Part shown: one piece after another, positions 25,823-49,234 of the stretch
Numbering within the stretch: position 1 is the first letter of the stretch
Layout of the letters: each line of letters starts with the position of its first letter
Assembly: GCA_009761415.1 (NCBI GenBank)
Contig: QUOL01000010.1
Span: 1,178,001-1,242,000 of the forward strand
From: Sarcomyxa edulis
Taxonomy: Eukaryota; Basidiomycota; Agaricomycetes; Agaricales; Mycenaceae
DNA length: 64,000 nucleotides
Direction: 5' to 3'
Notes under the pieces: generated by a model
What the model was told of the DNA's origin: nothing
The model's input: only the letters and a program-made list of their open reading frames with translations
Databases searched by the model: none
Translations under genes and position numbers: made by a program

Positions 25823-27471
25823 TTATATGTGATCTAATGCAAACTGCTCATCTGCAAAAATGACATCCGTTCTGATGACCATCTCTAGTGTGGCGTCGGA
25901 ATGGGATTTCTTCCCGCTGTTCAGCCAGATCCATTTCACACCGACATGATATGCTACGGCAGGCCCCCAACGTTGATTGAGTAGGTCAGTAGGATCCGAC
26001 CAGCCAGGCCATTCGAAGTAACGTGGTGTGCCGTGCAGACAGTTGCTATTAATTTATTCAGGAAAGCGCAAACAACAAGGCGTAGAGATACGCACAAATG
26101 TAGAAGCTTGGGCAAGACCACATCGCCCCATTGTGGCGTGTCTTTGACATTCGACTGGGCCTCCATCTCCTGTTTCTCAGTAATATCGTCTCTCCCCAGT
26201 CCCGTTCCATACATGTTCAGCAGACAACTCGTGACCTCAAAGTCATAACTCAATGGCTCGAATATGTCCGGTCGTCCATCTACGATTGCCCACCAATATC
26301 CTTGATCCCCAAGTTTCACGTCAACATAATGTCCATCATCGCCAGGAGGGCCGTACTTCTGACGGAATGTAGGAGGCGCTAGGGCATCTGGATATTTCCC
26401 GCTTGTATCGGCGCGGTAGATGCTAGAGTCCATAAGACGGAGTACTCGGAGCTTCTCAAGATCGAGAAGCATAATGCAGGAGCAAATTCGGGAGGCCTGG
26501 TGCCACGGTGGGGAGTTTTGGTCTGGGTGGGAGGGCATCACTATCGCCGTGTTGGGCTTCAGTCTTGAAAAGACAAGCCATAATAGCGTTGGGTCTGCGA
26601 CGAACATGGCGTCTGTGTCTACGAATATAGCTTTGGGGACTGTCGGAGGGAGAATCTCGTGTACGAAGAGTTTCATTAGTCCGGCTGCATAAGACTTAAT
26701 GAGTGATCTCAGACGGTAGTATGCATCTGCTGTAAGACTCACGAATACCGGCGGAGTGGTCAGTCACTACTCCTCCTTCGCGCTCGACACGATCCCGCAT
26801 TTGTTCCCATGTCAGTCGATAGAAATATACGCGAACATTGTGTGATGGGTGCGTCACTAGAGATAGGCGTTTCTGAAGGTATTCTTGGGCTGGTTCATCG
26901 CAGATGATGTGAAACTCTGTAGGACTAGTATTGTATAGTATAATAGACTACAAGAGTGTGGATCAGAGACACATACAGGATAGTAAGAGAGTGAGCGACT
27001 CACTTTCATTAAGACGGCACCTTCACTCGCGGAGTCCTCCGAAAACATGATTAAAACAAAGACGACTGGCTCTGCATTAGATGATCCATCTTTATAGATG
27101 GTTACTGTCTCTGTGATAGTAGGTGCGTGTGCAGTGAAGGTTTCTGTGACGGTGGCTGCTGCAGTCGTAATCGTGTAGGTTCGAGTGATTGTCAAAGGCG
27201 ACGCGTCGGCAACATCTACGGCCTCGACGGTTTTTCGATCGTGAAAATTGTCGAGTGAATAGCCTGTTCCTCTGGCAAGGAGGAGGAGACCAAGGAAAGC
27301 TGTTATGACCGCGAGAACGAGAAATTTTCGCCTGCGAGGGGAATACCACCAGCTCAAATATCGTTGGTCGTGTTGGTGTGACGAGTACATTAGTGGGGAA
27401 GCTGAAGTGTCCTCGAATGCCGACGACGACCGCGACGACGACGGCAACGAGAAAGATGTACGACCGGTCAT
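25823..27471 (-). CDS. GT8-like type II membrane glycosyltransferase
   Basis: Exons 27004-27471, 26749-26947, 26096-26684 and 25823-26045 encode 492 aa. A cytosolic Ser-rich tail is followed by one membrane anchor (about residues 50-66) and a Thr-rich stem, the usual Golgi type II layout. The catalytic part has a DxD metal site in FVDTDAM (245-247), PSHPDQNSPPW, a GDQGYWW motif, and a C-terminal FNCLHGTPRYF with an HG motif, all as in family GT8/LARGE-type transferases. Donor and acceptor are unknown. The start codon lies only about 245 bp from the left end of the large mobile element, so the native promoter is probably displaced. Confidence 0.88.
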
Positions 27472-27716
27472 TATAGCAGATCTATTTTCAAATGACAATC
27501 TTCAAGTTGAAATCTAGAGTCGAAGTGACGCTGATCGATGCAACAAATGAGCGCTCTCGTTCTTCAAAGAAAAAGAGAGAGAAAAAAACCTTGTCTGCCC
27601 TGGAGAATGCAGGGATTAAGGGTTAGTAGGTAGATAGACGATGTTGTTAACCAGTGCATCAGTAACAGTTTGAGTCTGTTTGAGCCTGAACCTGAGATCG
27701 GATAAGTGGGTGTGAC

Positions 27717-29243
27717 CATGTGGTTACAGGTGAACACGGCTTTGCGCCAAACACGCACACAACAAACAGAGGTTCCTGTGTGCAGCCCGCTGCAACGCCA
27801 ACTATCGACGTTCTGGCCTTACCTCCTTCACAGAATATCAATACCTTTCACTTTGTATAGTCGTAAATCCTTCCATTATAAGCATGCTCCATGATGTGGG
27901 CAATCTCAAGCCGACATCATATGTCTACAGTTGCCTAGTACCATGGTGGGAATTTGCGAGATTCCGGGCGGTGGTGAGTACCTATTGGTATGTTTTAAGG
28001 GCTGAAATTCTCGTGTATCGTAGCGCACTTGGTACCATTTGTTTTACCTACAGTCTCGTACATCCACTGGACAGCGGATGTCCGATTTTGAAGGGGTATT
28101 GTCGTCCTGCTGGCTCTAGCATACCGTCAAGTTGATTACAGGCGGTTCTGCACGTCTATCACGGCCTCTGTGGGTATCTGTGGTACGCCGCCGTATCCTG
28201 GCGGTGTGCACGCATCGTGGTCATCTACCCAGCGCCTCTTTCTGTATGGATCTAATTTGCAATGGTGTACGTAGCCCACTGGCCCCATACTGGTTGTATA
28301 GACCCGTCGAACGTAGCCTGGACAGTTCACCAGCATCATCGGCCACACCATATACGTTCCTGCAAGAATTTTCGCAAATCCTGTACTTCCCGGCGGTTGT
28401 CTCAGCGCATCCAGGAAATCTCCAGGTAAATATTGCTGTCTCCATGGTATGTACAGCGCGCTCACTCCCTGACGGTCCTATAGAATCCATGGATAGGGCG
28501 CGCGCGGTCCCCTGCACCTACAGCGTATTCCCCGCGGCTTTTCCTGTAAGAGCGTATTACCCGATGGTCTACGTATCCCACCGACACTGTGCTAGGTATA
28601 TAGAGCCGCCGAATGTGGTGGGGGCGGTTCTATGCCACTGCCCGCCATATTTTTCCATGAACTCGACAGTTCTAGCGGTCGCCTCAGCGTACCCAGGGAA
28701 TTTTCAGGTAAATATTCGTATCTCCATGGTATGTACAGCACGCTCACTCCCTGACAGTCTTACAAAATCCCCGAATAGGGCGTGTACGGTCCCCTGCACC
28801 TATGGCGTAATTCCCGCGTCCTTTCCTCTCAGAGCGTATTATCCAACGGTCTACGTATCCCACGGACATCGTACTAGGTATATAGAACCCTAGAAAGTAG
28901 CGGGGGAGGTTCGATGCCACTGCCCGTCATATTCCATGGCTGCCGGCGCTCGCCCCCATATATTTCCATGAACTCGACAGTTCCAGCGGTCGTCTCAGCG
29001 TACCCAGGGAATTTTCAGGTAAATATTCGTATCTCCATGGTATGTACAGCACGCTCACTCCCTGACAGTCTTACAAGATCCCCGAATAGAGCGCGCGCGG
29101 TCCCCTGCACCTACAGCGTATTCCCCGCGCCTTTTCCTGTAAGAGCGTATTACCCGATGGTCTACGTATCCCACGGACATCGTACTAGGTATATAGAACC
29201 CTAGAAGGTAGCGGGGGCGGTTCGATGCCACTGCCCGTCATAT
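27717..29243 (+). repeat. left terminal inverted repeat (1.53 kb)
   Basis: This pairs with 45252-46778 in reverse complement. Only two mismatches are noticed, both near 28371-28380 by comparing the encoded frames, and there are no indels. The outer edge is CATGTGG at 27717. The 253-codon frame at 28132-28893 is a translation of repeats and is not called a gene. Confidence 0.9.
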
Positions 29244-29790
29244 TCCATGGCTGCCGGCGCTCGCCCCCATATATTTCCATGAACTCGACAGTTCCAGCGG
29301 TCGCCTCAGCGTACCCAGGGAATTTTCAGGTAAATATTCGTGTCTCCATGGTATGTACAGCACGCTCACTCCCTGACAGTCTTACAAGATCCCCGAATAG
29401 GGCGCGCGCGGTCCCCTGCACCTACGGCGTATTCCCCGCGCCTTTTCCTGTAAGAGCGTATTACCCGATGGTCTACGTATCCCACGGACATCGTACTAGG
29501 TATATAGAACCCTAGAAGGTGGCGGGGGCGGTTCAATGCCACTGCCCGTCATGCTCCACGGCTGCCGGAGCTCGCCCCCATATTTTTTCATGAACTCGAC
29601 GGTTCCAGCGGTCGTCTCAGCGTACCCAGGGAATCTACAGGTAAGTATTCGTGTCTCCATGGTATGTACAGCACGCTCACTCCCTGACGGTCTTACAAAC
29701 TTCATGAATAGGGCGTGTACGGTCTGCCCTACCCAGCGCATATATATGCACAGGTTCACGTGTCTGCCCGCAGTATTTTCTGTAAGCTGA
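28600..29790 (+). repeat. left subterminal array of about 311-bp units
   Basis: Units recur at 311-bp spacing (frame starts at 28914, 29225 and 29536), with a diverged copy before them. Each contains the sequence around TCTCCATGGTATGTACAGC and ends near GGTATATAGAACCCTAG. The array starts inside the terminal repeat and continues past it, where the two ends of the element no longer match base for base. Such arrays may be transposase binding sites (inference). Confidence 0.85.
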
Positions 29791-29902
29791 GCTGGTCCAA
29801 CATAGCCTATACAGTCTCAATGATCTCGCAACACTTCCATGTATATCTGCTATATTCCATATATTCTAGACAAATATAACTTGTACTGCAAAATCCTCAT
29901 CA

Positions 29903-32900
29903 TCATTTCGGCATGTTGGTGATTCTCGCGATTTGAGAGCGATTCCAAATACATAAGAAGACTTTGCTGTACACTATAGCCCGCTCCTGCGACATGTAAC
30001 TCACCGACTTTCTGATACGTGTAAGACCACTGTTACCGCATTCTGCCGCGCTCGAATTGATATGGCCTAGTCGAGGATCTATGGTGGAATAGGATGTCAA
30101 AAAAGCCGCAGGTGCACACTTTGTGTGACCTTTCGAATGAAATGCGTCGATTACAAACAGAGTGTCGGCAAAGAATTCCGCCTCGCGGATCATACAATAT
30201 GGACCCAGTGCGCACGCAAAATCATAAATGACTCGTTTTGGAGCTTTTGGCCACCGTGTGATCATCGCTGAGAAAACATCGTTCCTACCTTCTCCTCGGG
30301 GAATGCAGTGAAATCCATAGCAGATGCTGTGGGTACACCATGCGCACATTATCCCTCCCGTTAAACGTCGCTCCCCGTATTGAGAGTAGTACTTAGAGCA
30401 TTTTGCGCCCCGGCTTCCAACTATCTCGGTTCGTTGATCATGGGTTAGATGGGGATATTTCGGGCGGTGGCGAATCTGAGGCATGCTGTAACAGCACCCC
30501 GTCTAGAAACCACTTGTCAGAGACCCATCATGACGATCTTATATAAATCTTACAGTTTTCCAGCTGCTGGTAGGATCCAAATTGCTTGTGATGTCGATAA
30601 CACCTGGATCGGCGCCCACTGAACGCACGCGAAGCCGTACCGAAACATTGTAGGCACAGGTATATACCCATCTACAAAGCGCCAGTATGTTTTGGGAATA
30701 TTGTCCCACAGGCATGTCGATTAAGACTTGATATAGCATCGGGATGGACACTAGTCGCGAAAGAGTAGTGGATGTCTGGCTTTCTAAGAATGCCTTGAGA
30801 TCGAGGAGGGCTGGACCATTTATTGCCTGTAAAACCGATTCTTCCGCACTTATCTATCATACGAATGAGTACCCAGCGTGCTTTGTGAAACGATCTGGAT
30901 GTACACACACCTGCATGAAAAGAGCACGATAAACTCCAGAGCAAGGCATCGATTGCTTAGACATGAACACGTCGACTCCAAAATTCTCGTCAAAGATCTG
31001 CGCAAGGGCAGTATTCACAAGCAGAAGCTTTTCTTTGGCCTCACCCACAATCTTGATATGCGCCAGCGCAGCAACAGCATCGGCTTTCCGCTTTGCTGCT
31101 GCCTTTGCCGTCAGAGCTTTGATATCGACCACCACGCCGACGTCGTCCTCTTCCTCTTCGTCGTCCTCGTCAATGGCGGGTAAAAGTGGTCGAAGGGATT
31201 TTCCCGTAATTGCCTTGCGCACCATCCTGCGAAGTTTCAAGTCAGGAATGAATTGCTGTCGAGCGTCGTAGTATGCCTTCGTGCGGATGGGAGAGTCGAT
31301 GCTCAGTGTAGTGGGGGGTTTCAATGAAGATAGTAGGTGTTTTCGGCTGAACGCCAACGTTACCCCGTCCCAGATAACGTCCTCCGGACTTGGACCACAT
31401 GTAGGACATATCATGTCCCCTTCTAGACGTATGAGTTCTACGAAGGTGAACCACACCGCCCGAAACATCTCCTCGCTTACAAACGGCTTGGCGGAATCAT
31501 AGTTTGCGTATCGACGAGATATTTCCGTCACATACGCAGTGAATGGAGTCTCGGAAGTCGTGTAAGCACTCATGTACTCCTCCAGTAGGTCGTGTGTGAA
31601 CAGAATTCGATTATTGAAATTGAACAATCCGTGTTCTCGTGCGTCGGGTCCAATGTAGCGTCGACGACCTGGATCACAGCTAGGGCACAACTGCAGTTCG
31701 ATGAGCCTGTCCAAGGTCCCAGTCAACGTGTATATCAAGCATGGACGCTCTATGGTTGGATAATTGCAATTATACATTGCTCTAGTGACGGCTTGAGGGC
31801 AGGGACAGGAGGAGCTGGTATGCAGTGGAATGAGCGTAGGAGGTGCGCAAAGAGGGTGTGTTCGTGTGTATAGTTGGGGATCCGTTGGGAGAGTAGCCCA
31901 TCGAGGTGGAAGAATCGGGAGATGTGAGACGCTTGTGTTCTCAGTTCTCCCACCTTTGCGAACTCCTCGAATCATATCTGGGTTTCGCCGTAAGCATGGC
32001 GAATACAAACTCGTGTGGATATACCCTACCTGTGTCCTCAGGTCCTACATCAGCGGCAACAAACGAGTCCTTCGCATTGGGATCTTTCTGCAGCAATTGT
32101 TGAAGCTTGTTGCGGGCCTTCTGAATATGTAGGCAGCGACTGTCGTTGCGGTCCTTCGAGCAGCGCCAGACACCACCTCCTGTATTGTCACCTTGGTGAG
32201 ACACGAATGCGCGACTATACATCTGTGGATTCCCGGGGGTTGGTACAGAAAAGTTGTTCACGAAAGTGTCTTCGTCAAGTTTTGAATGCGAGAACAAGAT
32301 GGTGTCGCGCTCTGTTTACCATGTAAGAGTCGGAGGGCGCTTTCATATGAATTGTAGACACACTCGCCTGTTTCAAAGGCCTCGTTCTCAGGGAATCGCT
32401 CGGCTTTGAATTCTTCAAGGAATTGTCGATGCACGCAGGACAATGAGCGACGGCCCTGAGGACAACAGCAGGATGTGCAGAGTTGAGTCCCTATTAGAAC
32501 TGCCTGGAGGTGATGAAAGTGGTGCTGTCGACGTACTTTATACTTTAGTTATCTGTTCGCGGTATAGTGGTCGAAACTCACTGTCAGTCGGGCACCATCC
32601 CAGCCTTGTACTACGAACAGTGTTGGTAAAATCTGATAGAAATCAGCGCAATCGGCCAGAACTAGATCCATGTAATCTTCGAAGCTATCCAGGTTGATGT
32701 CCGCTTCATTGGAGTCCAAGTCAACATCGCCTTCCATTATCGGATCGAGTTCGACTTGTGCGAAGTCTTCTTCTACCAGGTCTTTCTCTTGAATATCCAA
32801 GTCCTCGTTATCGTCCTTCGTTCCAGTTCCATGACTAGGAGTACCAGGTCCTTTAGCAGAACTCAAAGCACCTACACGTCTTCTTTTGACTTTACGAGCC

Positions 32901-33046
32901 ACCAGTGGCCGCATGCGTTTGTGGGGACTTTCTGTCGGAGGAGCATATTGTGAGGGAGAGGACGGCAGTGATGCAATTTCAATGTTATCTGGTGATTCAG
33001 GAGGTGTAGAGATATCAATAGTTTCCGGTGGAGGCGACACTGACAT
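29903..33046 (-). CDS. KDZ-superfamily transposase with CxC-type cysteine clusters
   Basis: Exons 32582-33046, 32320-32503, 32030-32269, 30911-31977, 30554-30826 and 29903-30502 encode 942 aa. The N-terminus is acidic with a basic patch. A Cys cluster at 164-178 (LCTSCCC) and a SWIM-like site at 253-264 (CX8CXH) match the CxC5/CxC6 clusters found with KDZ transposases. A further CPTCG (487-491) precedes the conserved DG of IWDGVTLAF (D500). The C-terminal catalytic region has the KDZ pattern YDFAC (D837), FVIDAFHSKGHTKC (D862) and a following acidic E897 in AAECGNSG. It would cut and join the element ends. All exons are open, so it looks functional. Intron 4 (84 nt) has the least certain acceptor. 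Confidence 0.9.
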
Positions 33047-33211
33047 ACTTCTGTGATCCAACAGTTTCCAGACACGCGTGCAGCTGCATTGAGTCTTGAC
33101 GCGTCGTGGGCAGTATCTCCAAACCGCCCGATCATGTGTGGCGTCCTATAAAACCCTCTTTTTTTGGTGGATTTCCGTCACAGCCCGCGGTTTTTTTCTC
33201 CCTAGAAGACC
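33047..33211. promoter_or_regulatory. shared divergent promoter, transposase / cargo gene
   Basis: Just 165 bp lie between the transposase ATG (minus strand) and the next cargo ATG (plus strand). Both must be transcribed from this interval, which implies coupled expression (inference). No specific element is identified. Confidence 0.45.
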
Positions 33212-34427
33212 ATGCCCAAAACTCCGAAGGCTCAGCGCGCTGAAGGTCGATCGTCTCCACGATGCAAAAAATGCGACGGTAGGCCGTTACAGTCTGAATG
33301 CGAGCATACATCAAAGGGAAGACTCTATCTCGAAGCTCTTGCTGTGCGTCCATATTTTCTCGTTCACCGTTTAATTTTACTTAACTCCGTCTTACATCAT
33401 TGCCAGTCGCTCGTCAATGCTCAGGCTCAGCCAGATCCACTTATGATCCCTCAACCAGCCAACAACGAGGCTCAACCAGCTAACAACGAGGCTCAACCAG
33501 CCAACAATGAGGCTCAATCAGCCAGCAACGAGGCTCAGCCAGCCAACAACGAGGTCCAGGGCAATCAATCCTATACGCTCCAACCTGTAGATGCCACCGT
33601 CAGTTTTTCCCCCTATCTTTTGTACCCTTCCCCCCTAATACCCTTATCTCAAGGCTATCGACCCAGCTCTCATGGCATTGTACACTAGCACTACGGGAGC
33701 CACGGAGGATGTCTTACAACCCGTACCCCAAACACCGACACGACAGACGACTATGATTTTGCTCGAGACCCCCTCTGTGGCACCTGCAACCCCCCGCCGT
33801 ACCAGAGTATCAGCGGAGAACATGTTGTATGGTCAGGTCGAGGGAGCGAAGCGGGGAAACATCCCCTACGGTATGGTTCCTCCAGTACTTCCTGTTGTAA
33901 TGACACTAACGCCACGCCTAGACATTGTACGATCTAGGCCACTGCCCCCCGTCATAACTGATTCACGCCTTGCGGGTGCACGCTTCCATCGCCTTATCAG
34001 CGATCTCATCGTTCGAGTCAGTCCTATTCCTCGATTTCTATGACACAATTCTAACTTAGATCCAATATAGTCTGAGCGTATCTCAGCCGCAACAAACTGC
34101 TGGCTTTATATCGGAGCACAACACATGAACGCCACCTCTGGCCTAGTCAGCTACGCCTCGCCACGTTTGCGACGTGATGCCAAACCCGAACTCGCATCCA
34201 TCCAAAATCAGTTCAATAAACTCGTTGCTGCACTTCTGACCTCTCGCCGCAGAGATGCTGTTGGCCTCGCCTTGGACTTAGGAGTCGCGAACAAGGAGAA
34301 GGAGTTGGCGCAGCGAGAGGCAAAGGACGCACGCTCAGTGGCCTCATCACGTGAGGAGACTATTCGCGCTCAAGCAAAAATGATCGCCGACTTGGAGGCA
34401 ATCGTTCAAGGCACTCAGCTTAAATGA
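33212..34427 (+). CDS. element cargo protein with NNEAQPA repeats, function unknown
   Basis: Exons 33212-33343, 33407-33598, 33654-33870, 33922-34016 and 34071-34427 encode 330 aa. I do not recognise the family. The N-terminus has a small CKKCDG then SEC cysteine group (residues 18-30). Residues about 57-95 are five tandem copies of a 7-residue unit close to ANNEAQP. The C-terminal third is helical and charged. The gene is divergent from the transposase and lies inside the element, so a role in transposition is a guess. Its last codons and 3' UTR start the 198-bp tandem triplication that follows. Confidence 0.75.
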
Positions 34428-34979
34428 ACACGCACTCTTTTAGAAATTCATTTGTTCGTAGTATACGATCCTGAAATTCCAACCAAACCGTATAGATCTC
34501 AAAAAAATTTACGTGATCGTCCATCGAGTCCATCAGCCACATATATCTCCCTTGAATCGACGCATATACAAACTTGCAACCTCGCCGACTTGGAGGCAAT
34601 CGTTCAAGGCACTCAGCTTAAATGAACACGCACTCTTTTAGAAATTCATTTGTTCGTAGTATACGATCCTGAAATTCCAACCAAACCGTATAGATCTCAA
34701 AAAAATTTACGTGATCGTCCATCGAGTCCATCAGCCACATATATCTCCCTTGAATCGACGCATATACAAACTTGCAACCTCGCCGACTTGAAGGCAATCG
34801 TTCAAGGCACTCAGCTTAAATGAACACGCACTCTTTTAGAAATTCATTTGTTCGTAGTATACGATCCTAAAATTCCAACCAAACCGTATAGATCTCAAAA
34901 AAATTTACGTGATCGTCCATCGAGTCCATCAGCCACATATATCTCCCTTGAATCGACGCATATACAAACTTGCAACCCA
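34386..34979 (+). repeat. tandem triplication, 198-bp unit
   Basis: Unit starts at 34386, 34584 and 34782, nearly identical. The first copy contains the last codons and stop of the upstream cargo gene, and the unit includes its 3' UTR. The third copy ends about 11 bp before the dioxygenase stop codon. Duplicated 3' ends may supply extra polyadenylation sites between the convergent genes. Confidence 0.92.
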
Positions 34980-34989
34980 ACTGTACAAT

Positions 34990-36937
34990 CTAGTGCCTGC
35001 TAAAAAAAAATTTATGATCGTCCACCAGGTCCTCAAACTTGGAAAACAAATCAATCGCAGATCTCCACCTTGAATCGCCCTCCCCATCTATGGCGGCCTT
35101 TGCTTCGGCACCTTCTTTCTCCACCAAATCCGCGGCCGTGCGAAACCCGTAAGATACCCACCGGAACAAACCTCCCGCGCAATACTGTGCAAATGAGTAG
35201 CGGTATTCGCCCTCTTGAATAGTTGTATTTCCATGGCGCAGAGTCCCCGATGGAATTAGAATCGTTGCTCCTGGAGGAAACTCGATGACCAACTTCAAAT
35301 CGAACAGGATGAGGTGGCCTCCTCGCTTAGAGTCATAGGACCCTAGAGCTGTTAATGCACAAAGCCCCCCAGGTACGTTGCCGGCATCGGTATGGCCAAG
35401 AGATACGGTATTCGGCCCCATGTTGAATGTCGCGGCGGGAAAGATACTGTTCGTAAAATTGCGCACGAGTTCCGGGTGATGGGTATACAACTTATGCAAC
35501 TGTTCCTGATACGATCTGTACATCTTGGGCGCGCAGGATCCAAATGCGCCTGATTGTTTAAAACCTCAGAGGGCATCTGACAAACGAAGTGACTATGCGC
35601 TTACTATCTTGAAACCCAGCAATTCGACCGATATCCTCGTTCTTCAGCAATGCGTTCACTGTGCGAACCGTTGATGGTTTGTCTTGAGCTAGATTTCCGG
35701 GCCTCTGATGGGGCAGTGAGACTCGCCTGAACGCCAACGAATACGATAGCGTACCATTTGACCGCCGCCGTAAGATACTCCGCACGCAAGTGCCACAAAC
35801 CTTCCCCGCCGATGCTTACGTGGCTGTATGCGCTCGTCGTCACGTTTTGCACTGATGATGCTGGCAGCTCCCCGTACGACATCCTGCCAAGGCTTAGATT
35901 TTGAGCTTGGATTGTCTCTAGGTTGTCCAGCAAGAGACGCGATCACACGGTTGTCCTTGTCCAGAATCACTTCTGGGGATCTGGGACATACGCGTTAGTC
36001 AGTTAGACCAAGACGTGAACAACAGCATACCGGCCATCCCACTCATGCAGCTTAAATCCCTTCCCAAGAATCTCTGTGAGACTAAACGCCTTCTTGCGTA
36101 CGACCTGCTGCCTGCAACTAGTGAAGGCCCCATGAGTTACTGGTAGCTTATGCGTATCAAACCCCGTCTTGATCACAGGAGCTGCACTCAGAATGGTAGC
36201 CGTCGCTGGATGCATGCGGCGTTCTGGCGGAGGTCCTGTTAGCGTCTGTGACGCAGACGCGCGCGCTCGTTTTTTTGCGTGCTGGCGCTGGTGTGCCTTC
36301 TTTCGCCTACGTTGTTGCTCAACTGATCGATTCAAGGAGGACATTGACATGGATTGTGGAGGAGGCGATGCAGCCTGAGGATGCACGGAGACAACGGGTT
36401 TCAGAGATAACGGTGGTGAAGGGTCAGAGAATGGCGGCGCAGGGATTGATGCTTCATCCAGAATAGACATGTCTGAAAGGCAGTCGGAAAGCGATGAGAT
36501 TGACGATTTTTGCGAGTGGGATGTGGACGGTAGTGTATCTCCGTAGTCAAGCCTAACGCCCTCTGTGTCTCCAAGCCCCTCCTCCTCGCGTGCAAGACCA
36601 TTTAGAACATTTCGCGCAATCAATTTATCGATGCACTGGCCAGTTGGAACAGGATTAGGGAGTGGGAATGTAAAGGGTGAGAATTCTGTTCCCTGACGGG
36701 TCTTGGCCGCAACGTTTTAGTTACATGTAAAAAGAAGGTAATGTGATGTGTACCTTTCTTATGGACGCGTTGTAAAGAGCCTAGGACAAGCAGAAATGCA
36801 TCAGCAGAGGGTAATACATGATCGCAAATGACCGCACGCGCTCCGCCACAGTACCCGTGGGTTAGGTTCAGCGTACAGATTACGAGAGGCCAGAGCAAGG
36901 TGTATGTGAGGAGATGGCTTACCTTGGGCGTAGACAT
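34990..36937 (-). CDS. TET/JBP-family 2-oxoglutarate/Fe(II) dioxygenase
   Basis: Exons 36923-36937, 36754-36780, 36031-36692, 35755-35980, 35605-35704 and 34990-35549 encode 529 aa. After a low-complexity, basic N-terminus comes the fungal TET/JBP domain: VILDKDNRVIASLAGQP, RRGRFVALACGVSYGGG, then IGRIAGFQ. The iron ligands are H396 and D398 (GHTDAGN) and distal H449 (LRHGN); R460 in YRYSFAQY fits the 2-oxoglutarate-binding Arg. Family members oxidise 5-methylcytosine or thymine in DNA, here presumably in the nucleus. All key residues are present, so activity is expected. The long first intron (142 nt) may hide a further small exon. Substrate base is unknown. Confidence 0.9.
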
Positions 36938-37251
36938 GTTGGTTCAGTGCAGAAGACAGCATGACCTTGGGAACGAAAAAAAAGCGGGATGAGTTTGAAT
37001 TCAAAATGACATGTAACGGTCACGTGGAGACGCGCGTATATGGCAGACGTGACTGTTCCGTTAGCACATGGGGTAAAAATCGGCATGAGCGTGAATCGAA
37101 CACAGAACGACAGGAATATAATAAGACAAGCAAAACATTAGAGGACTCAAGACGATCCACTACACAATACCGGTGCGGGGATAACCGACAAGGCCTGCAC
37201 TCTGATCGGCCCTTGAACATCATATCGATATCTAAACAGGCTTGCGGATAA

Positions 37252-37301
37252 GTTCGCGATAAGTTCGCGATAAGTTCGCGATAGGTTTCAGATAGTTTCA
37301 G
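37252..37301 (+). repeat. short direct repeats (GATAAGTTCGC and TTTCAGATA)
   Basis: An 11-bp unit GATAAGTTCGC occurs about three times, followed by two copies of a TTTCAGATA-like unit. They directly precede the nested inverted-repeat element and might be a protein-binding cluster or slippage product. Confidence 0.7.
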
Positions 37302-37311
37302 ATATATTTGA

Positions 37312-38391
37312 CTCGAGCTCACCGTCGTGCACGACGAGCTCGTTGTTCTTCTCAAATTGACCACTTTCTCTTTGGTTTCTTTTGTAAATACTATTCGCAT
37401 ACATAGATAAAACACATATATATAGTCCATTTGCCTTCATCGTAGCTAGGGAGGCTTTGGATGCACCAACTCCGCCGTGACCTTGAATAAATTCCCCCAG
37501 ATCAAAGGGTCCGGCCCACGACTACGAGAAGCGGCTGATAAATAAGAGTCAGATATATAGAGTAGAGAGGGGCGGTTTCAAACGCATCCTAGTTCTGGGC
37601 CGTGTTCAAAGGGACGATTTACGAGCTAGATACATGAAAGAAGCTCACGGCGAGATCGACGAGCGGCGAGCTGATGGGATAACGTGTGTAAATGATGGTG
37701 TATAATGGTATGAGGTGATGTACAAGGTGTGAATGTCCTGCGTTCACGGGTGTAGAATATAATCAGGATTTTCAGTGGGGGAATTAGGCGGTATGCTCAC
37801 CAGAGCTTTACAGACTTGTTGTAGCTGTCTAGAGGGTCTGAAACATTCGGGGGTGGTCCCTGTAAGCGTTCTGGATAGCTTCTCAAAGCTACAGAGGGCC
37901 GAACAAGGGAGAAAAGCGAATTGTATTGCAGACGGGAGATCGCGAGCTGGAGGAGATACCGGCCAGTATAATGTATGCAGAACGTGTTGGCGAGGCCCTA
38001 TGGCCGTCCCCCAAACGATTTAAATGGTCCCTGGACTATTGAGGGTGATGAAAAAACCGGCATGAGATGTATCTAGCTCGTAAATCGTCCCTTTGAACAC
38101 GGCCCAGAACTAGGATGCGTTTTGAAACCGCCCCTCTCTACTCTATATATCTGACTCTTATTTATCAGCCGCTTCTCGTAGTCGTGGGCCGGACCCTTTG
38201 ATCTGGGGGAATTTATTCAAGGTCACGGCGGAGTTGGTGCGTCCAAAGCCTCCCTAGCTACGATGAAGGCAAATGGACTATATATATGTGTTTTATCTAT
38301 GTATGCGAATAGTATTTACAAAAGAAACCAAAGAGAAAGTGGTCAATTTGAGAAGAACAACGAGCTCGTCGTGCACGACGGTGAGCTCGAG
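37312..38391. mobile_element. nested 1.08-kb element with 325-bp inverted repeats
   Basis: Arms 37312-37635 and 38067-38391 are reverse complements with only a few differences (one indel near the GGATGC motif). They enclose about 431 bp without a convincing gene; an 82-codon frame there has no recognisable domain. Both outer ends read CTCGAGCTCACCGTCGTGCA. No target duplication is obvious. It is best read as a non-autonomous (MITE-like) insertion or long hairpin between the dioxygenase promoter and the next cargo gene. Confidence 0.8.
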
Positions 38392-38507
38392 GTGCTGTAC
38401 GACGTCTTACGCGTTGTTCACGCGTGTGACTGAATAACGCTGATTGTGACATCACGGACATGCGAATCGCGACTTCTGCACTGTTTTTCGTGTATCTACT
38501 AGAATTC

Positions 38508-39313
38508 ATGGCTGCAAATGCGTTGGAGAAAACCATCAGCCACAAAAAAGCATGTCGCAAGTACTATGAAGCGTACGGGCTTTCTCTGCCTCACAGGAAC
38601 TTTGCTGACTATTCTATCTCACCCACAGGAACAAAACGGCGCTTCAGGAGAAGGCTCGAAAACGCAGTGCTATCCGGTAGGCTGTTCCTGGGGACATGTG
38701 CTTTTCAAAATGTATGTATGACGGGGTCACTACCTTTCTGCTATAGACGTGCGGCCATGAAGGTATCCAGCGCTGCATCTGACCGAAGCTTACCTGATTC
38801 GGACCCAGAATTGGACGACGATACTGACGACGATGACAACCCCATTCCTGAAACGCCATGCCCAATACCACTCAGACTTTCCAAGAAGTCGAGTCGAAAG
38901 TTGACGTATGCAACGCATGGAGCTCCGTCGAAAGCAAAGCCCATCCGATCTACATACATTCCTACTGTACAGCATAATCCACATGTCGCATCAACATCCT
39001 CAAAATGTCCTGCTTCCAAGGCTTCCTTGCCAGAAAAGCCTCTGCAGAGAAATTTATTTGGCCCTAAATCAGCGAAACCTCACCCTGCGTTTACTTACGA
39101 CGAGTCCGAAGATGAACGCGACTCATCTGGTTTGCACCCTTCGCAACGGTGCGTATCTTGTCTCCATCCCACCACTTGATTACCAAGGCTTTTTATTTTC
39201 GTTGTCGTAGACCAGGGCACCATCATCCCTTAACGTCGTTCAGAAACTCAGAAGCCTACGTTTCTAGCCATCGTATGGTAAAGAAGGATCGCGTGCGTAG
39301 GGGCAAGGAATAA
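38508..39313 (+). CDS. element cargo protein, function unknown
   Basis: Exons 38508-38572, 38629-38676, 38747-39148 and 39211-39313 encode 205 aa; the frame closes across three introns of 56-70 nt. The N-terminus is a charged helix (CRKYYEANKTALQEKARKRS), a type of sequence common in mushroom proteins linked to mobile elements. An acidic Asp run (DDDTDDDD) and a Ser/Pro/Lys-rich tail follow. I do not recognise the family. An in-frame upstream ATG at 38460 would add 16 residues with a hydrophobic look; 38508 is preferred but uncertain. Confidence 0.65.
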
Positions 39314-39514
39314 TTCTCAGCATCATTTCACCCCCAGACGATTGCATATCATCTCTTTTTAGTACCTAAGTTGTAACCTACCTGAGCCATTTGAACAGAC
39401 TGACCACGAGGCCTCCCGAGAGAAGGTCTTGCAATCCAACTGGAGGATAGAATACTAAGGTCCCAAGAAAAAAATATGTAGACTGTCCAAGTTAAGATGA
39501 AAAAGATTCACCGA

Positions 39515-39672
39515 AATGAGTATTGAACCTGTCCCCCTCAGACAAAGGGCTTCAGTGCATTGTGTGTGCTGAAACAATAACCAAGTCGGGAATTGAACCA
39601 TCACCCTCATGCAAAGGGATCAGGCTTGCGAGACATTAGTGGACATTAACCAGTCCACCATCTGACGCTTAT
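39515..39672 (-). ncRNA. Pol III-type tandem tRNA-like unit (possible SINE or tRNA pseudogene)
   Basis: Two diverged copies lie head to tail on the minus strand. The first (about 39592-39672) has a box A-like TGGTGGACTGGTTAA, a GGAC/GTCC D-stem, a CCCT/AGGG variable-arm-like hairpin, and a box B GGTTCAATTCCC. The second (about 39530-39592) repeats TTGGTTA, CCCTTTG..GAGGG and GGTTCAATAC. A run of five T follows about 20 nt later, a Pol III stop. The acceptor stem does not close and the anticodon stem is poor, so it is not a working tRNA. The long variable arm suggests a Ser or Leu type ancestor. Confidence 0.4.
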
Positions 39673-39915
39673 TGAGTTTCGTAATGCCAGTAGATATTAT
39701 ACACGATGAGTTCCCTATATCCCACCACGAATTGCAGCTTGCGCGAAGTCCTCACATAGTCTTACTTCTCTTTCGACGAATCATAATAGGCAGTAGACGT
39801 GGTATTCAGGTACTCTACTAGCTAACTTCACTTCTTTCCTTTCGTGCTACTGTGCGCTCTGGATGACAGGTAAGTGTTGTGTCTCAGCTCGATGATTCAA
39901 TCCAACGTACCGAGT

Positions 39916-40449
39916 TCACTGACTGCCATCTTCTGAGTCGCTGGATAAGTCAGGCTCGCCCACGCCCTGCCTCCTGTATCGACGGGGTATCCTGATAGGA
40001 GGGTCGCAAATTCCCTCGGTGTCCACATCGGCATGGAGCTTTCGTATGAGCGAAGCGACACCATGACAGTCGCTATCCTGCGTCCCAGTTGGCCTCAGGA
40101 CGAAGAATTCTCCGGGTGATACGAAGATCGTCTCGTAAATGTCGGCCAGGACCCAATCCCCTTCAGTGACACTATACATCTCGTAGTCATAGAAGGAGAG
40201 ATAAGCTAAGTGCGCCAAGTGCTCGTGAATATGAAGCTCGAGGCCACCACCGCGAATCGGAGCTTTCCATTCCAGTGGATATCTGGGGACCTGAGATAAT
40301 TGTGAGTGACTGAATGTATAGATGAAGTCCATGCTTACATCGGATGGTATGTATATAAATAAAGGGACAGATGGCGCTGTCAGGCATCTAGCACGCAGGC
40401 ATCGAGGATCCCCGCATCCATACACCGATATTACTTGGAGTTCAGCCAT
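39916..40449 (-). CDS. element cargo protein, function unknown (161 aa)
   Basis: Exons 40339-40449 and 39916-40290 with a 48-nt GTAAGC..CTCAG intron. Because the intron length is a multiple of three, an unspliced 177-aa form is also open. The N-terminus has a Cys group (YGCGDPRCLRARC); the middle is a compact alpha/beta-like stretch (GGGLELHIHEHLAHLAYLSF then VTEGDWVLADIYE). The tail is basic then acidic. No family is recognised. A further in-frame ATG at 40608 would add 53 residues with a hydrophobic segment. It is divergent from the coiled-coil cargo gene. Confidence 0.6.
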   Translation of the reverse strand: MAELQVISVYGCGDPRCLRARCLTAPSVPLFIYIPSDVSMDFIYTFSHSQLSQVPRYPLEWKAPIRGGGLELHIHEHLAHLAYLSFYDYEMYSVTEGDWVLADIYETIFVSPGEFFVLRPTGTQDSDCHGVASLIRKLHADVDTEGICDPPIRIPRRYRRQGVGEPDLSSDSEDGSQ

Positions 40450-40916
40450 TTTTTCGTTCGAACAGGCGAGCAACGAAGTGAGGAGGATAAGAAGAGTTTT
40501 CACGGCTGGTGCTGGTTCAATCTTTGGGGGGACAATGTCGGTCAACGCCGTATGGTGAGCATTCACCAGGCTAGGGTGTTTTTCCTTATTGAAATGGTGG
40601 TGCCTCATCTCAGACTACCTAATCTGCGATTAGGGACTAGGCTATACCACGGAACAGTACACGATGGGCGCTGTCATGCCGCAAAAACAATTACCGATGA
40701 GCGGCGGTGCGGTGCGAGAAAATCAAACACAGTTGTCAGCAGTTCTCCTACTCCAGCAATCCTCTCGTCAACGGTTTCTCCAGATCTCCGACTCCAGCAG
40801 TCCCCTCGTCAACGGTCTCCCCAGTATACCACAAGTCCACTTCATTCATTCTCGACGGTCTGCCCTCTCCGAATTTCGCACTCTAACTCCAATCGCGTCA
40901 GGAAATCACCGAAAAA

Positions 40917-43149
40917 ATGGATACTGAACAGTACAGAGGTGAGACGACATAGTCTACTATAGGACGCGTAAGCTGACAGTCTTGCCTCCAGCTCAACGAA
41001 TTCTACTTCGTGCAGAGGTCGAAACCGCACGCAGTGCCCACAAAAACATCGCCGCGCAATGGGCCGGCGATAAACTGGCCGTCAAATCAGTTCAGGACCT
41101 CGCGGAGAAAAAAAAGAAGGGGGGATCGAAAGGTACGATTATGTGCTGTGAAAGATGCTTGACCTGGCTCTGACTTTCGTATATACTTGTAGCTGCCCTC
41201 GACGAAGCGACTTCTGTGGAAGCATCGACTCGAACGTTGTGCGCCAATGCCGCGAAGGCCCTGAAAACCGCGGAAATGGCCCTCTTCATGATCGAGAAAG
41301 AGATTGATGCTGCGACTCAGGCTGGGGAGTACATTCCCAACGAGCAAGAGGCTGCTGCTACTGTCAAACTTCAGAGGCTCCACGCGCACAGAGTCCAGCA
41401 GAACAATGCGAAGAAAGACCAAGAGAGGCTGGACAAGGCGCAGGCAGAGAAAGTTGCGGCAGAGAAGACAGCGATGGAGAAGGAGAAGTTGACGATGGAG
41501 GAGGAAAGGAAGAAGGCCGCTGCAGAGAAGTCGAGAGTGGAGGAGGCGGAGAAGTTGCAATTGGAGGAGGAGACGCGAGACAAGGTCGCTGCAGAACGGT
41601 CTCGATTGGAGGAGGAGGCAAGGAAGAAGGCTGCTGCGGCAGAAGAGGCAGAACGGTCACGATTGGAGGAGGAGGAGGCGAGGAAGATGTCTGGGGCAGA
41701 TGAGGCGGAGAGGTTGAGGTTGGAGGAGGAGACGAGGAAGAACTCTACCGCAGACGAGGCGGAGAGACTGAGGTTGGAGGAGGAGACGAGGAAGAACTCT
41801 ACCGCAGACGAGGCGGAGAGACTGAGGTTGGAGGAGGAGACGAGGAAGAAGTCTGCCGCAGACGAGGGGGAGAGGATGAGGTTGGAGGAAGAGACGAGGA
41901 AGAAGTCTGCCGCAGACGAAGTGGAGAGGCTGAGGTTGGAGGAAGAGGCGAGAGAGCAGGTGGCGAAAGACGAGGCAGAGAGGTTGCGCACGGAGGGAAA
42001 TGATGCACCAGGAGGCCTCGTGACCGGCATTGAGAAGGTTGCGAGGCTTATGCAGGAACTCGAGCAGCGTGAACGAGACCTTGCAGAACACGAGCTTGCG
42101 TTGCAGGCTAGATCTACGAAGGCCACAGGATCACGCAGCGCACGTAGCGCCAGTAAAAAGGCACTTCACAAGGCGGAGGAAAGAGAGCAGATGAAAAAGG
42201 AGAAGGCAGAGGAGAGAGAACGCCTACTTCTCGCGGTCGAGGCTAATCGAGAGAAAAAGCGTAAACGGCCGCAACAGGGTACCAGCGGCGACGCAACTGA
42301 CGTCGTGGATGGTGAACACGAGCCTGAAGGACAGCGTCAGCCGAAGAAGGCGAAGGATTGTACGTACCATACACTCATTTCTGTTGAGATCGCTTTTGGC
42401 TCACGACAGTCTCTGTAGTGCCTATCAAGGAATTGTATCTGGCAATGTCCGAAGAGGAACAGAAGGCGTTGAGAGGTGAGTCTCTACCGTTCAAGTTCCG
42501 ATAACATAGTCGCTGACTTGTTGCAGCGGAAGGGCGAAGGCATCTACTGAAGTTCGTCAAAGATCCTGATGAATATTCTGTGCCGTTCAAGTTTCGTCGC
42601 CTCATTCGAGAGGTCCAGGATTTCCTTCCCGAGGCTTCGCGATTATGTCGGGAACTAGCACTACACTGCCTCGAAACAAGGGCGGGAAACTTCATCTGTC
42701 CTTACCATTCGGAAAAGGACAAGACGGGCGCAATCTTCGATGGCGCACCAGATTGCAAGTACGAAGTCACAGGCGTTCCGCACCAGCGTAATGTGAAGGG
42801 GCCGGAAGATGAAGAAGTTCCTGAACGTCACGACGGGTATCTCCATTGCGGCTGCCCCGAGGACGATGTGCTGATGGATTTCCAGTGGTGGAAGGGTAGT
42901 GCAGTAAGGTCGCCTGTGACCAACAAGCTGGAGGGCCTCAGGGATCAGCGTTTGGATCCTCGAATGCGCATGTTCATGTACGAAAACTGGTGCGGCAGCA
43001 CCTGCCAAACTGTACATGACATGTTCCGGGGAGTGCACCCCAAAGAAACTCACAAAATAGATGCTTACAGGGCGAGGATCAAGGCTATCCAAGCGGAGCT
43101 TGACATCGCTGTGGAGGAGGAGAAGGCTCGGAGGAAGAAAAAGAATTAG
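40917..43149 (+). CDS. element cargo coiled-coil protein with C-terminal Cys/His region
   Basis: Exons 40917-40938, 40992-41132, 41193-42359, 42410-42475 and 42527-43149 encode 672 aa. Residues about 115-330 are a highly charged coiled coil made of repeats near 18 residues long (core DEAERLRLEEETRK). A Lys-rich basic stretch with likely nuclear-localisation sites follows (EKKRKRPQ). The last 200 residues form a distinct domain with Cys/His pairs (FICPYHSEKD, LHCGCPEDD, NWCGSTCQTVHDMF) that may bind metal. I do not recognise this domain. The architecture suggests a DNA- or scaffold-binding partner of the transposon, which is only inference. Confidence 0.78.
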
Positions 43150-43379
43150 TCTCGTTACTTGTAATTTTTCACTGAGGTGCTAATTGAAGTTATTTGTCGG
43201 CCTTTTCATGATTGAGTTGAACACGGAGTAGTAACTCAGTAAAGGTATCTTCGCTGCTCAAAACACGATCAGGATGAACAAGTAATTGCATTGAATACTA
43301 CTTTATCTAAGGAGGACGGCGAGGATACCGGGGACCTGTGCAGACTACAGGAACAGGGATCGGGAAAGGGGTGGGGTTC

Positions 43380-43689
43380 GTGAATGCGTGTAAATCCATC
43401 GGCAGGCCGTACGCGCCATGGCGATAGGTGGGTGGGTCCCGGGAGCCGCGCGGAGGAGCTATGTGAATGTCGCGCGGATACGGCAGACCCTGGAGAGACA
43501 TGGCCTAAGCTTGAAATCGTAGCTCACAGTCTCACCGAATGCGTGTAAGTCCGTCGGCAGGCCGTACGCGCCAGGGCTGTGGGTGGGCGGGTCCCGGGAA
43601 CCGCGCGGAGGAGCTATGTGAATGTCGCGCGGACATGGCAGACCCTGGAGAGACATGGCCTGGCGTGAACTCGTAGTTCACAACTGTAG
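43380..43689 (-). repeat. 155-bp tandem duplication
   Basis: Two copies with 155-bp spacing share the sequences GGCAGGCCGTACGCGCCA and GACCCTGGAGAGACATGGCCT. They lie at the inner edge of the right-hand repeat zone. The frames over them (64 and 65 codons) are duplicates of each other and are not called genes. Confidence 0.75.
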
Positions 43690-45251
43690 AATAATGGGTA
43701 AGTATGTCGATGGTGTACATATATCCATGGAACACGACAGAGCTAACATACCAATGCAAATGTTAAGGAAGGGCTGACTGACTGTGGAGGACAGTGATGT
43801 CAAGTCGGAGCATTATGGGAGACAGTTGGACTTTGGTCGACGCAAGGCGCGTGGGGTACTGGGCTGTTCATTCAGTACTTCTGGCATTGTTTGGGGACGA
43901 TGTCGGCGGTATATGGGGTGTCTCAGAGTTCGGTCCACGCGCAGTGCTTTTTATTTTGACGATAAATAGGTGGATGGACGTCGGAGACCATGACCGATGG
44001 TCGGTAGGTGCAGCAGACCGTACGCGGCTATACTGAATCTCTAAGAACGCGCAATAGTTCGCATGGACGGTGCATTCTCTTACCGGCGGCTCTACGCAAC
44101 TACGGGTGGATAGCGTCTTGCGTATACGTGACGATGAACTACTACTTCAGAATAGAGTGAGGGCGGGCCACATTTGTGAATTCTTGACGACTGTCAGAAT
44201 GTCAGCGTTCCATGTAGAACAAGGAGATGCGAGCATGGGACAGCGCTATAATCGGTGTGATCCTCTAGAGTTTCTGAGAGGAACTTGAGGGGGGCTGCGT
44301 GTGCGGGGTCTGTATAGCTGAAAGGCCCACAGACCTGGCAGTAAGATAGCTTATGGTTGGCTGGTAGGTTCGAAAAGCGGTCGACGGGTTCACATGACTA
44401 ATAAGGTGTTAGTGGGCTCCATATAGCATGGCGAAATGATAGCTTACAGGGATTAACGCGGGGTAGGCGCATCGAGCTGTGGCATATACGCGGTGGGTGG
44501 GGCAGACCGTACGAGGCCTGTTCATGGATTTCCGGAGACTGTCGGGGCTGGGAGCGCTGAGTATACCGTGCAGAGACAAATCTATACCTGTATATTTCTT
44601 AGGCGCGCTAGCAGTGGCCACTAGGAACTGTGAGATTCATGAAAAATGCACGGTGCAGGTATGGGCAACCATGTGGCGTGGCTGGCAGTGCCGGCCAAAC
44701 AGGTTCGGCGGCTCTATATACCTAGCACAGTGTCGGTGGGATACGTAGACCATTGGATAATACGCTCTGAGAGGAAAGGACGCGGGAATTACGCCATAGG
44801 TGCAGGGGACCGTACACGTCCTATTCGGGGATTTTGTAAGACTGTCAGGGAGTGAGCGTGCTGTACATACCATGGAGACACGAATATTTACCTGGAGATT
44901 CCCTGGGTACGCTGAAACGGCCGCTGAAACTGTCGAGTTCATGGAAAAATAAGGGGGCGAGCGCCAGCATCCGTGGAGTATGGCGGGCCGTGGCAAGGAA
45001 CCGTCCCCGCTACCTTCTAGGGTTCTATATACCTAGTACAATGTCGGTGGGATACGTAGGCCATTGGGAAATACAAGAAACGACGCGGAAGATGCGCCAT
45101 AGGTGCGGGGGACCGTACACGCCCCATTCGGGGATTTTGTAAGACTGTCAGGGAGTGAGCGTGCTGTACATACCATGGAGACACGAATATTTACCTGAAA
45201 ATTCCCTGGGTACGCTGAGGCGACCGCTGGAACTGTCGAGTTCATGGAAAA
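43690..45251 (-). repeat. right subterminal repeat zone
   Basis: From about 44470 to 45251, diverged copies of the same roughly 311-bp unit as at the left end occur in inverted orientation, each with TACATACCATGGAGA and CAGGGAGTGAGCG motifs. Copy order and content differ from the left side. 43690-44470 holds no supportable gene and may be older, further decayed units. Confidence 0.75.
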
Positions 45252-46778
45252 ATATGGCGGGCAGTGGCATCGAACCGCCCCCGCTACCTTCTAGGGTTCT
45301 ATATACCTAGTACGATGTCCGTGGGATACGTAGACCATCGGGTAATACGCTCTTACAGGAAAAGGCGCGGGGAATACGCTGTAGGTGCAGGGGACCGCGC
45401 GCGCTCTATTCGGGGATCTTGTAAGACTGTCAGGGAGTGAGCGTGCTGTACATACCATGGAGATACGAATATTTACCTGAAAATTCCCTGGGTACGCTGA
45501 GACGACCGCTGGAACTGTCGAGTTCATGGAAATATATGGGGGCGAGCGCCGGCAGCCATGGAATATGACGGGCAGTGGCATCGAACCTCCCCCGCTACTT
45601 TCTAGGGTTCTATATACCTAGTACGATGTCCGTGGGATACGTAGACCGTTGGATAATACGCTCTGAGAGGAAAGGACGCGGGAATTACGCCATAGGTGCA
45701 GGGGACCGTACACGCCCTATTCGGGGATTTTGTAAGACTGTCAGGGAGTGAGCGTGCTGTACATACCATGGAGATACGAATATTTACCTGAAAATTCCCT
45801 GGGTACGCTGAGGCGACCGCTAGAACTGTCGAGTTCATGGAAAAATATGGCGGGCAGTGGCATAGAACCGCCCCCACCACATTCGGCGGCTCTATATACC
45901 TAGCACAGTGTCGGTGGGATACGTAGACCATCGGGTAATACGCTCTTACAGGAAAAGCCGCGGGGAATACGCTGTAGGTGCAGGGGACCGCGCGCGCCCT
46001 ATCCATGGATTCTATAGGACCGTCAGGGAGTGAGCGCGCTGTACATACCATGGAGACAGCAATATTTACCTGGAGATTTCCTGGATGCGCTGAGACAACC
46101 GCCGGGAAGTACAGGATTTGCAAAAATTCTCGCAGGAACGTATATGGTGTGGCCGATGATGCTGGTGAACTGTCCAGGCTACGTTCGACGGGTCTATACA
46201 ACCAGTATGGGGCCAGTGGGCTACGTACACCATTGCAAATTAGATCCATACAGAAAGAGGCGCTGGGTAGATGACCACGATGCGTGCACACCGCCAGGAT
46301 ACGGCGGCGTACCACAGATACCCACAGAGGCCGTGATAGACGTGCAGAACCGCCTGTAATCAACTTGACGGTATGCTAGAGCCAGCAGGACGACAATACC
46401 CCTTCAAAATCGGACATCCGCTGTCCAGTGGATGTACGAGACTGTAGGTAAAACAAATGGTACCAAGTGCGCTACGATACACGAGAATTTCAGCCCTTAA
46501 AACATACCAATAGGTACTCACCACCGCCCGGAATCTCGCAAATTCCCACCATGGTACTAGGCAACTGTAGACATATGATGTCGGCTTGAGATTGCCCACA
46601 TCATGGAGCATGCTTATAATGGAAGGATTTACGACTATACAAAGTGAAAGGTATTGATATTCTGTGAAGGAGGTAAGGCCAGAACGTCGATAGTTGGCGT
46701 TGCAGCGGGCTGCACACAGGAACCTCTGTTTGTTGTGTGCGTGTTTGGCGCAAAGCCGTGTTCACCTGTAACCACATG
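45252..46778 (-). repeat. right terminal inverted repeat (1.53 kb)
   Basis: Reverse complement of 27717-29243, outer edge at 46778. It ends 133 bp past the DDX41 stop codon. A 253-codon frame at 45602-46363 mirrors the left copy with two residue changes and is treated as repeat DNA. Confidence 0.9.
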
Positions 46779-46910
46779 ACATTAACCACCTAAGCCCCTG
46801 AGATGAGTGGAGTAAACTTGTGATGATCGAAGTTCGAGAACTCAAAAGCGCCGAAAATACAAAATGGATTGAAAAAAAATCGATATACAGATAACAGTAG
46901 ATATACAGTC

Positions 46911-49234
<2,324 letters not shown>

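Follow-up and report, generated by a model that had tools for sequence, protein, structure and literature searches.

TET-carrying KDZ transposons of mushrooms were reportedly described by Iyer et al. in 2014. The presence of TET genes inside KDZ elements, complete elements with target duplications and the idea that such genes counteract silencing have been published (Kojima 2025, PMC12730594), and the association between TET/JBP and KDZ genes is therefore known biology. According to that paper, Kyakuja elements have 7-bp duplications and CA..TG ends and are without terminal inverted repeats (TIRs), Zisupton and Dileera have 8-bp target duplications, and Zisupton has TIRs. The KDZ1 element of Cryptococcus, for which movement has been shown, measures about 11 kb and has 241-bp TIRs, 8-bp duplications and a CxC1 cluster (PMC12810828), and KDZ with CxC2 is known from Pleurotus (PMC7641404). 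Here we analyze a KDZ element that carries a TET/JBP dioxygenase gene in a 64,000-nucleotide stretch of Sarcomyxa edulis DNA (hereafter the window), which corresponds to C2:1178001-1242000 of a 35.6-Mb assembly of 40 contigs (Cn stands for contig n).

Like the TET-carrying Kyakuja, the window element combines a KDZ transposase and a TET/JBP gene in one bounded mushroom DNA transposon, and the same purpose is proposed for both. It is not a Kyakuja by its features, since it has an 8-bp duplication, CGGATA/GGCTTA ends, TIRs of 1.5 kb and a CxC4 cluster. The 8-bp duplication together with the TIRs makes it resemble Zisupton in these features, and the 8-bp target duplication is also common to Dileera. 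TIRs and 8-bp duplications are shared with Cryptococcus KDZ1, whereas the latter is smaller, belongs to CxC1 and carries no TET that the available part of its description mentions. Open-licence literature listings, a scope that excludes the 2014 paper and the 2025 supplement, returned no CxC4-KDZ element that has TIRs of 1.5 kb, carries TET and comes with companion genes specific to its lineage, nor two separate exchanges of this kind. The explanation to which we give a little more credence than doubt is that of a complete, probably autonomous cut-and-paste transposon of the CxC4-KDZ type that received its TET by exchange and whose TET oxidises 5-methylcytosine (5mC) nearby.

A bounded element with intact parts

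The initial annotation described near-identical inverted ends of 1.53 kb and placed the bounds of the element at 27717 and 46778. The arms are real: 27717-29244 and 45251-46778 pair over 1,528 bp with 3 mismatches. The single bounded unit also stands, owing to an 8-bp duplication, whereas the exact ends were rejected, as only 2 bp repeat directly outside 27717/46778 and each terminus is found 18 bp beyond its arm. The element spans 27699-46796 (19,098 bp) and its motif-defined termini are flanked by the exact 8-bp direct repeat CCTGAGAT at 27691-27698 and 46797-46804. The left terminus begins CGGATAAGTGG at 27699, the right one begins GGCTTAGGTGG at 46796 on the reverse strand; the two 18-bp end segments differ from each other and their starts recur in related elements. 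The corresponding features and the transposase are as follows.

27691..27698, no strand: left target-site duplication CCTGAGAT, an exact direct repeat
27699..27716, + strand: left terminus CGGATAAGTGGGTGTGAC, outside the near-perfect TIR, with the motif CGGATARGT common to C3 and C8
27717..29244, + strand: left long TIR of 1,528 bp, with 3 mismatches against the right arm
28360..29724, + strand: subterminal tandem units, spacing 282/311 bp
29903..33046, - strand: CxC4-KDZ transposase, 6 exons, 935 amino acids, keeping D484, D830, D855 and E890
45251..46778, - strand: right long TIR; subterminal units start at 44695
46779..46796, - strand: right terminus, reverse strand GGCTTAGGTGGTTAATGT, with the motif GGSYTARGT common to C3, C8 and C34:2429874
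46797..46804, no strand: right target-site duplication CCTGAGAT, an exact direct repeat

The left motif CGGATARGT and the right motif GGSYTARGT also bound an element of 33,446 bp on C3 (C3:1026866-1060311, exact 8-bp duplication CCATAAGA) and one of 13,957 bp on C8 (C8:373691-387647, exact 8-bp duplication GAGAGCAG). A terminus at C34:2429874 shares the right motif, and no complete end pair was found for C34:2132k and C34:2432k in the stretches compared. Around the motif-defined ends of the window element, one of the 49 offset pairs tested gives an exact 8-mer. A loose motif search for duplications yields many chance pairs with one mismatch; the three exact pairs, all of them at matching termini, were retained. 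As the exact duplication lies at motif-defined ends, 27699-46796 is a bona fide insertion, and the proposal of one bounded element with intact parts is strengthened by the target-site duplication. The inverted arms of the C3 element (409 bp at 92%) and of the C8 element (52 bp at 81%) are far less alike than those of the window, which suggests for the latter a younger insertion or stronger conversion, a comparison that gives no date. Long TIRs would be kept alike by conversion or by recent transposition.

As initially annotated, the transposase gene is intact, being open through GT-AG introns over 935 amino acids, or 958 if an alternative acceptor of the first intron is used (uncertain). The CxC4 profile matches it at 152.8 bits, and 83 of its 84 database relatives are annotated as CxC4, one of these also as KDZ. 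Among the aligned relatives having a letter at the position, the same residue is found for D484 in 83/83, D830 in 46/47, D855 in 45/45 and E890 in 45/45 rows, 37 to 39 of the 84 rows being gapped at the last three; these four are the presumed catalytic residues. A KDZ domain with a CxC zinc cluster is thus found together with TIRs and a target-site duplication. The CxC4-KDZ transposase would recognise the terminal motifs, which are asymmetric, together with the subterminal arrays of repeats, and would move the unit.

Searches of the organism's own genome, whose counts are lower bounds throughout, recovered five CxC4 loci: the window, C3, C8, C34:2132k and C34:2432k. Their C-terminal exons differ by a nonsynonymous divergence (dN) of 0.024-0.17 over the ten pairs, and synonymous divergence (dS) is saturated in nine of these and nearly so in the tenth. 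Low dN with saturated synonymous sites points to old CxC4 lineages under purifying selection. The best named relatives of the element's proteins are from Agaricomycetes.

Two observations concern the architecture of the related elements. In both C3 and C8 the internal gene block is inverted with respect to the terminal motifs, relative to the window, as recombination between long TIRs would give. The C3 element also contains 508-bp direct repeats, 99.8% identical and 11.7 kb apart from start to start, which resemble a nested long terminal repeat element.

The TET/JBP dioxygenase and its possible role

The second intact gene of the initial annotation is also borne out, the model used being open through GT-AG introns over 529 amino acids, with the last four exons firm and the 5' exons uncertain.

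34990..36937, - strand: TET/JBP dioxygenase with HTD...H and Arg; fold of the last exon like CcTet and NgTET1

A high-confidence predicted model of the last exon retrieves CcTet of Coprinopsis cinerea first and NgTET1 next among solved structures. CcTet is reached by the fold search only, with 16-19% identity in the structural matches; sequence searches of the PDB (phmmer at 0.001, profile at 0.01, profile at 10, with 12 other sequences matched) did not find it. The TET alignment comprises 124 rows, six of them sequences from the same genome and 118 drawn from the 120 listed database proteins, in which conservation concerns the first His (123 rows), the Asp (121), an Asn at D+3 (122), a Cys at D+9 (123) and the distal His (124). 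A double-stranded beta-helix, the HxD..H motif and the Arg for 2-oxoglutarate are present, and support from the Tet_JBP profile, which matches 10 of 30 aligned members, is weak. HxE occurs in 0 of the 124 rows, which does not correspond to the PE type of Kojima. An assignment to the AG type, made at first reading, was dropped because Asn and Cys occupy D+3 and D+9 in place of Gly/Ser and Asp. Six further Tet_JBP matches below the cut-off (C14:272054, C12:112496, C30:22259, C9:559007, C4:310971 and C37:1832563) are absent among the matches of the window TET and may represent another TET type.

In CcTet, Gly331 corresponds to Asn1387 of human TET2, which bonds 5mC and blocks N6-methyladenine (6mA), and the second position is Asp337 in CcTet and Thr1393 in TET2 (PMC11040006). 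Paired with these positions by spacing from HxD and not by structural alignment, the window TET is like human TET2 at the first position (Asn) and different from both TET2 and CcTet at the second (Cys), whereas CcTet, although the closest solved fold, has the Gly331 and Asp337 pair. The presence of the TET2-like Asn and the absence of a Gly/Asp pair suggest that the substrate is 5mC and not 6mA, and because its active site differs from that of CcTet, the enzyme is predicted to act on another range of substrates.

The TET would most likely oxidise 5mC on DNA near the element and, in a host that possesses cytosine methyltransferase genes, might thereby help to keep the promoter of the transposase or the element's ends usable, a step that is the weakest part of the proposed mechanism. 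C5-methyltransferase matches above the family cut-off occur on three contigs of the host, which makes the TET substrate plausible, and escape from silencing has been proposed by Kojima for TET-carrying elements (PMC12730594). Observed/expected CpG is 0.99 in the window element and 0.98 and 0.93 in its flanks, against 0.79 in the TET-carrying C3 element, 0.85 in TET-less C8 and 0.98 in TET-less C34. CpG depletion as a sign of methylation did not emerge as a pattern across the window, C3, C8 and C34, and CpG content neither supports nor excludes self-editing of the kind put forward in the initial annotation.

Several results speak against a functional, mobile TET-carrying KDZ element of this kind. 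The KDZ profile PF18758 gives the transposase 20.2 bits, below its cut-off of 26.6 bits, and the genome search with this profile missed the element's own transposase. Likewise, the Tet_JBP profile gives 19.5 bits with the last TET exon, below the cut-off of 34.9, and no match to the spliced TET at 0.01. Two of the five CxC4 loci, the window and C3, yielded a TET; among the matches listed there is none on contigs C8 and C34, which hold the other three, so that TET is not needed by the CxC4 lineage. The search of the 35.6-Mb assembly with the TIR, which the initial annotation had suggested for locating other copies, returned related families instead, with no second copy elsewhere among the matches listed, and with a single copy in the assembly the movement of the element is not shown directly. 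No link was seen between CpG content and TET, as carriers and TET-less relatives overlap. Finally, Laccaria genes with high 5-hydroxymethylcytosine (5hmC) are repressed (PMC8889193).

The last point leads to the best surviving rival, which we regard as possible but distinctly the less probable account: the TET would make a stable oxidised mark that quiets the element or is read by host proteins, acting as self-restraint or as a near-neutral passenger. The silencing of high-5hmC genes in Laccaria, where 4 of 46 TET genes have detectable expression (PMC8889193), fits this account, as does the lack of a TET match at three of the five CxC4 loci. It agrees poorly, on the other hand, with the purifying constraint on the TET exons where this is measurable (dN/dS of 0.06 in the pair C2-C1 and of 0.04 in C1-C27, dS being saturated in most others), and with an apparent double gain of TET by CxC4 elements. 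Repeated gain and continued constraint would be unexpected for a TET that harms its carrier, and for this reason escape from silencing appears somewhat more likely than repression by oxidised 5mC.

Source of the TET gene

Merging by hand 67 TET exon matches in the genome gave 27 loci, and canonical KDZ loci were likewise merged by hand from 93 KDZ profile matches. Of the 27 TET loci, eighteen have a canonical KDZ match at most 6 kb away; in 13 of these pairs both lie on one strand and TET is upstream, and in 5 they are on opposite strands. The nine that have no such partner comprise the TETs of the window and C3, which are located within CxC4 elements, and seven further loci that include fragments. 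Seven loci beside canonical KDZ show 61-68% identity with the window TET, and the C3 TET shows 53-54%. For the C3 TET, identity is 63-69% with six other loci, of which five are next to canonical KDZ. A careful tree of 39 hand-picked rows (6 from the same genome and 33 of the 118 database domains) groups the window TET with those of C40, C2, C27 and C1 at 99/99, as sister to the other four (97/94), and constraining the window and C3 TETs together is rejected (approximately unbiased test, p-AU 0.011). In a quick tree of all 124 rows the C3 TET falls outside the group of window, C40, C2, C27 and C1 with a Shimodaira-Hasegawa-like approximate likelihood ratio (SH-aLRT) support of 99, and its placement in the 39-row tree, beside two rows on a long shared branch, is unsure (90/72).

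Since the two TETs do not group and each is closest to TETs beside canonical KDZ, TET was probably exchanged twice between KDZ lineages; the C3 half of this double exchange is founded on pairwise identities, its nearest kin being outside the tree. The window TET would accordingly have come by exchange with canonical, Kyakuja-like KDZ elements, separately from that of the C3 element. For a transfer from canonical KDZ to CxC4 the argument is one of parsimony, because the window TET is sister to, and not nested among, the four canonical-KDZ TETs; parsimony favors it as TETs are many beside canonical KDZ and unfound in three of five CxC4 loci. Kojima states that AG-type TETs show no transfer between superfamilies (PMC12730594), which is not directly contradicted, as the window TET is without the AG hallmark.

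C2:359162-375343, the only TET-carrying canonical KDZ element examined closely, contains a CxC2 cluster. Its 7-bp duplication, CTCAAAG, was selected from other chance 7- and 8-mers since the left end is common to C1. The test for CxC2 was made at C2; in that stretch the DNA of C27 and C1 is alike to it, and the C40 match ends before the stretch. Close to its ends the C2 element carries inverted repeats of 89 bp at 76%, and its other end starts with GAG, both unlike the absence of TIRs and the CA..TG ends of Kyakuja, so that the Kyakuja-like label is tentative for it. A TET-carrying KDZ element is present in an inverted duplication (C2:360459-370458 and C2:396000-405999), 100% identical over at least 10 kb, for which natural duplication or an assembly effect is possible. 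The KDZ/TET pairs at C4:573587 and C39:1616960 have identical match scores and suggest recently copied TET-carrying KDZ elements.

The surroundings of the TET in the window, including the four other open genes of the initial annotation, all of which hold up, are listed below.

33212..34427, + strand: gene 2, 330 amino acids, 5 exons; relatives at C34:2135k, C3:1057k and C8:381k
34384..34977, no strand: three tandem copies of 198 bp, located where gene 2 and TET meet with their 3' ends
37312..38391, no strand: hairpin with arms of about 325 bp, 99% complementary, and a 431-bp spacer; the matching C34:2136k interval is about 1 kb shorter
38508..39179, + strand: gene 4, 181 amino acids, with a KACRKYYEAN...EKARKRSA motif; relative at C34:2136600
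39916..40614, - strand: gene 5, a single open frame of 232 amino acids; matches at C34:2139k, C3:1056k and C8:385k
40917..43149, + strand: gene 6, about 650 amino acids, a coiled coil with 54-bp repeats and a C-terminal domain

The window TET is convergent to gene 2 and downstream of it; the arrangement in C3 is likewise convergent, and gene 5 separates TET from gene 2 there. Our judgement is evenly divided on the fuller proposal that two related CxC4-KDZ elements gained TET independently, from two clades of canonical-KDZ-associated TETs and in both cases downstream of and convergent to gene 2, the TETs being repeatedly traded modules with a 5mC-specific, TET2-like site unlike that of CcTet. 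The common position relative to gene 2 in both carriers would also suit a single gain in an ancestral CxC4 element followed by losses at C34 (two loci) and C8, with a tree misled by rate differences, and the unsure placement of the C3 TET (90/72, two neighboring rows on a long shared branch) leaves room for it. We nevertheless hold a single gain to be unlikely, as the grouping of window and C3 is rejected at p-AU 0.011 with the 39 hand-picked rows and the C3 TET is closer to six other loci, five beside canonical KDZ (63-69%), than to the window (53-54%).

Between genes 2 and 4, the window element exceeds the TET-less C34 relative by two segments, one of about 2.4 kb that contains TET and one of about 1 kb that contains the hairpin. 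The absence at C34 of TET and hairpin, within about 3.5 kb, and the location of the closest TETs beside canonical KDZ could also mean that a Kyakuja-like element once inserted into the CxC4 element and left the TET there as a remnant and not as a functional part. This we consider quite improbable: the TET stretches of C1, C27, C2 (two copies) and C40 resemble the window element in DNA over the coding part only, no other KDZ match was found in the element (by the search that also missed its own transposase), CxC2 was not found in the ten frames scanned, and the TET frame is intact despite saturated synonymous sites relative to its kin. The same restriction of similarity to the coding part indicates that the exchange was not recent. 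The hairpin, which lies just upstream of TET and could give double-stranded RNA, has no match in the compared stretches of C2, C27, C40 and C1. Lastly, although near-identical long inverted arms can confuse assemblers, an assembly artefact joining two unrelated repeats, the concern raised in the initial annotation, is scarcely credible given the exact 8-bp duplication at motif-defined ends here and the same ends with exact duplications at C3 and C8, on other contigs.

Companion genes and significance of the element

Genes 2 and 4 are open through standard introns and gene 6 is open from 41174 on, its first exons having been inferred by eye. Own-genome protein searches with one exon or frame each of genes 2, 5 and 6 matched CxC4-KDZ loci only, among the matches listed: four each for genes 2 and 5 (window, C34:2.13 Mb, C3 and C8) and six for gene 6, covering all five CxC4 loci. 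Three of the four extra genes are thus known from CxC4-KDZ loci of this genome alone, within the scope of these searches, which bears on the suggestion in the initial annotation that the cargo set may be undescribed. Gene 4, compared with the retrieved relative stretches only, has a match at C34. The matches of gene 5 at C34, C3 and C8 all hold internal stops. The sixth match of gene 6, at C34:2169k, is the second half of the C34 copy and lies 26.5 kb from the first half, which implies that this copy is interrupted; the closest relative of the window element indeed seems interrupted within gene 6 by about 26.5 kb (C34:2142419-2169575). No Pfam family matches genes 2, 4 and 5 or two pieces of gene 6; a protein-database search with the gene 6 domain gave no match, none of 723 candidates passing at 0.001. 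A single-sequence structure model of gene 6 was too poor (mean predicted local distance difference test, pLDDT, of 43.6) and was set aside. Outside the element, a DEAD-box helicase gene (47161-48569) adjoins the right end, and no Pfam match was found for the left neighboring frame (25957-26763).

A bounded TET-carrying KDZ element and TET-less relatives of the same lineage in one genome constitute a natural comparison for the function of transposon-borne TET. This comparison opens the question whether the gain of TET changed the methylation, the expression or the spread of an otherwise similar element. Repeated exchange, if true, would suggest selection for TET on the element.

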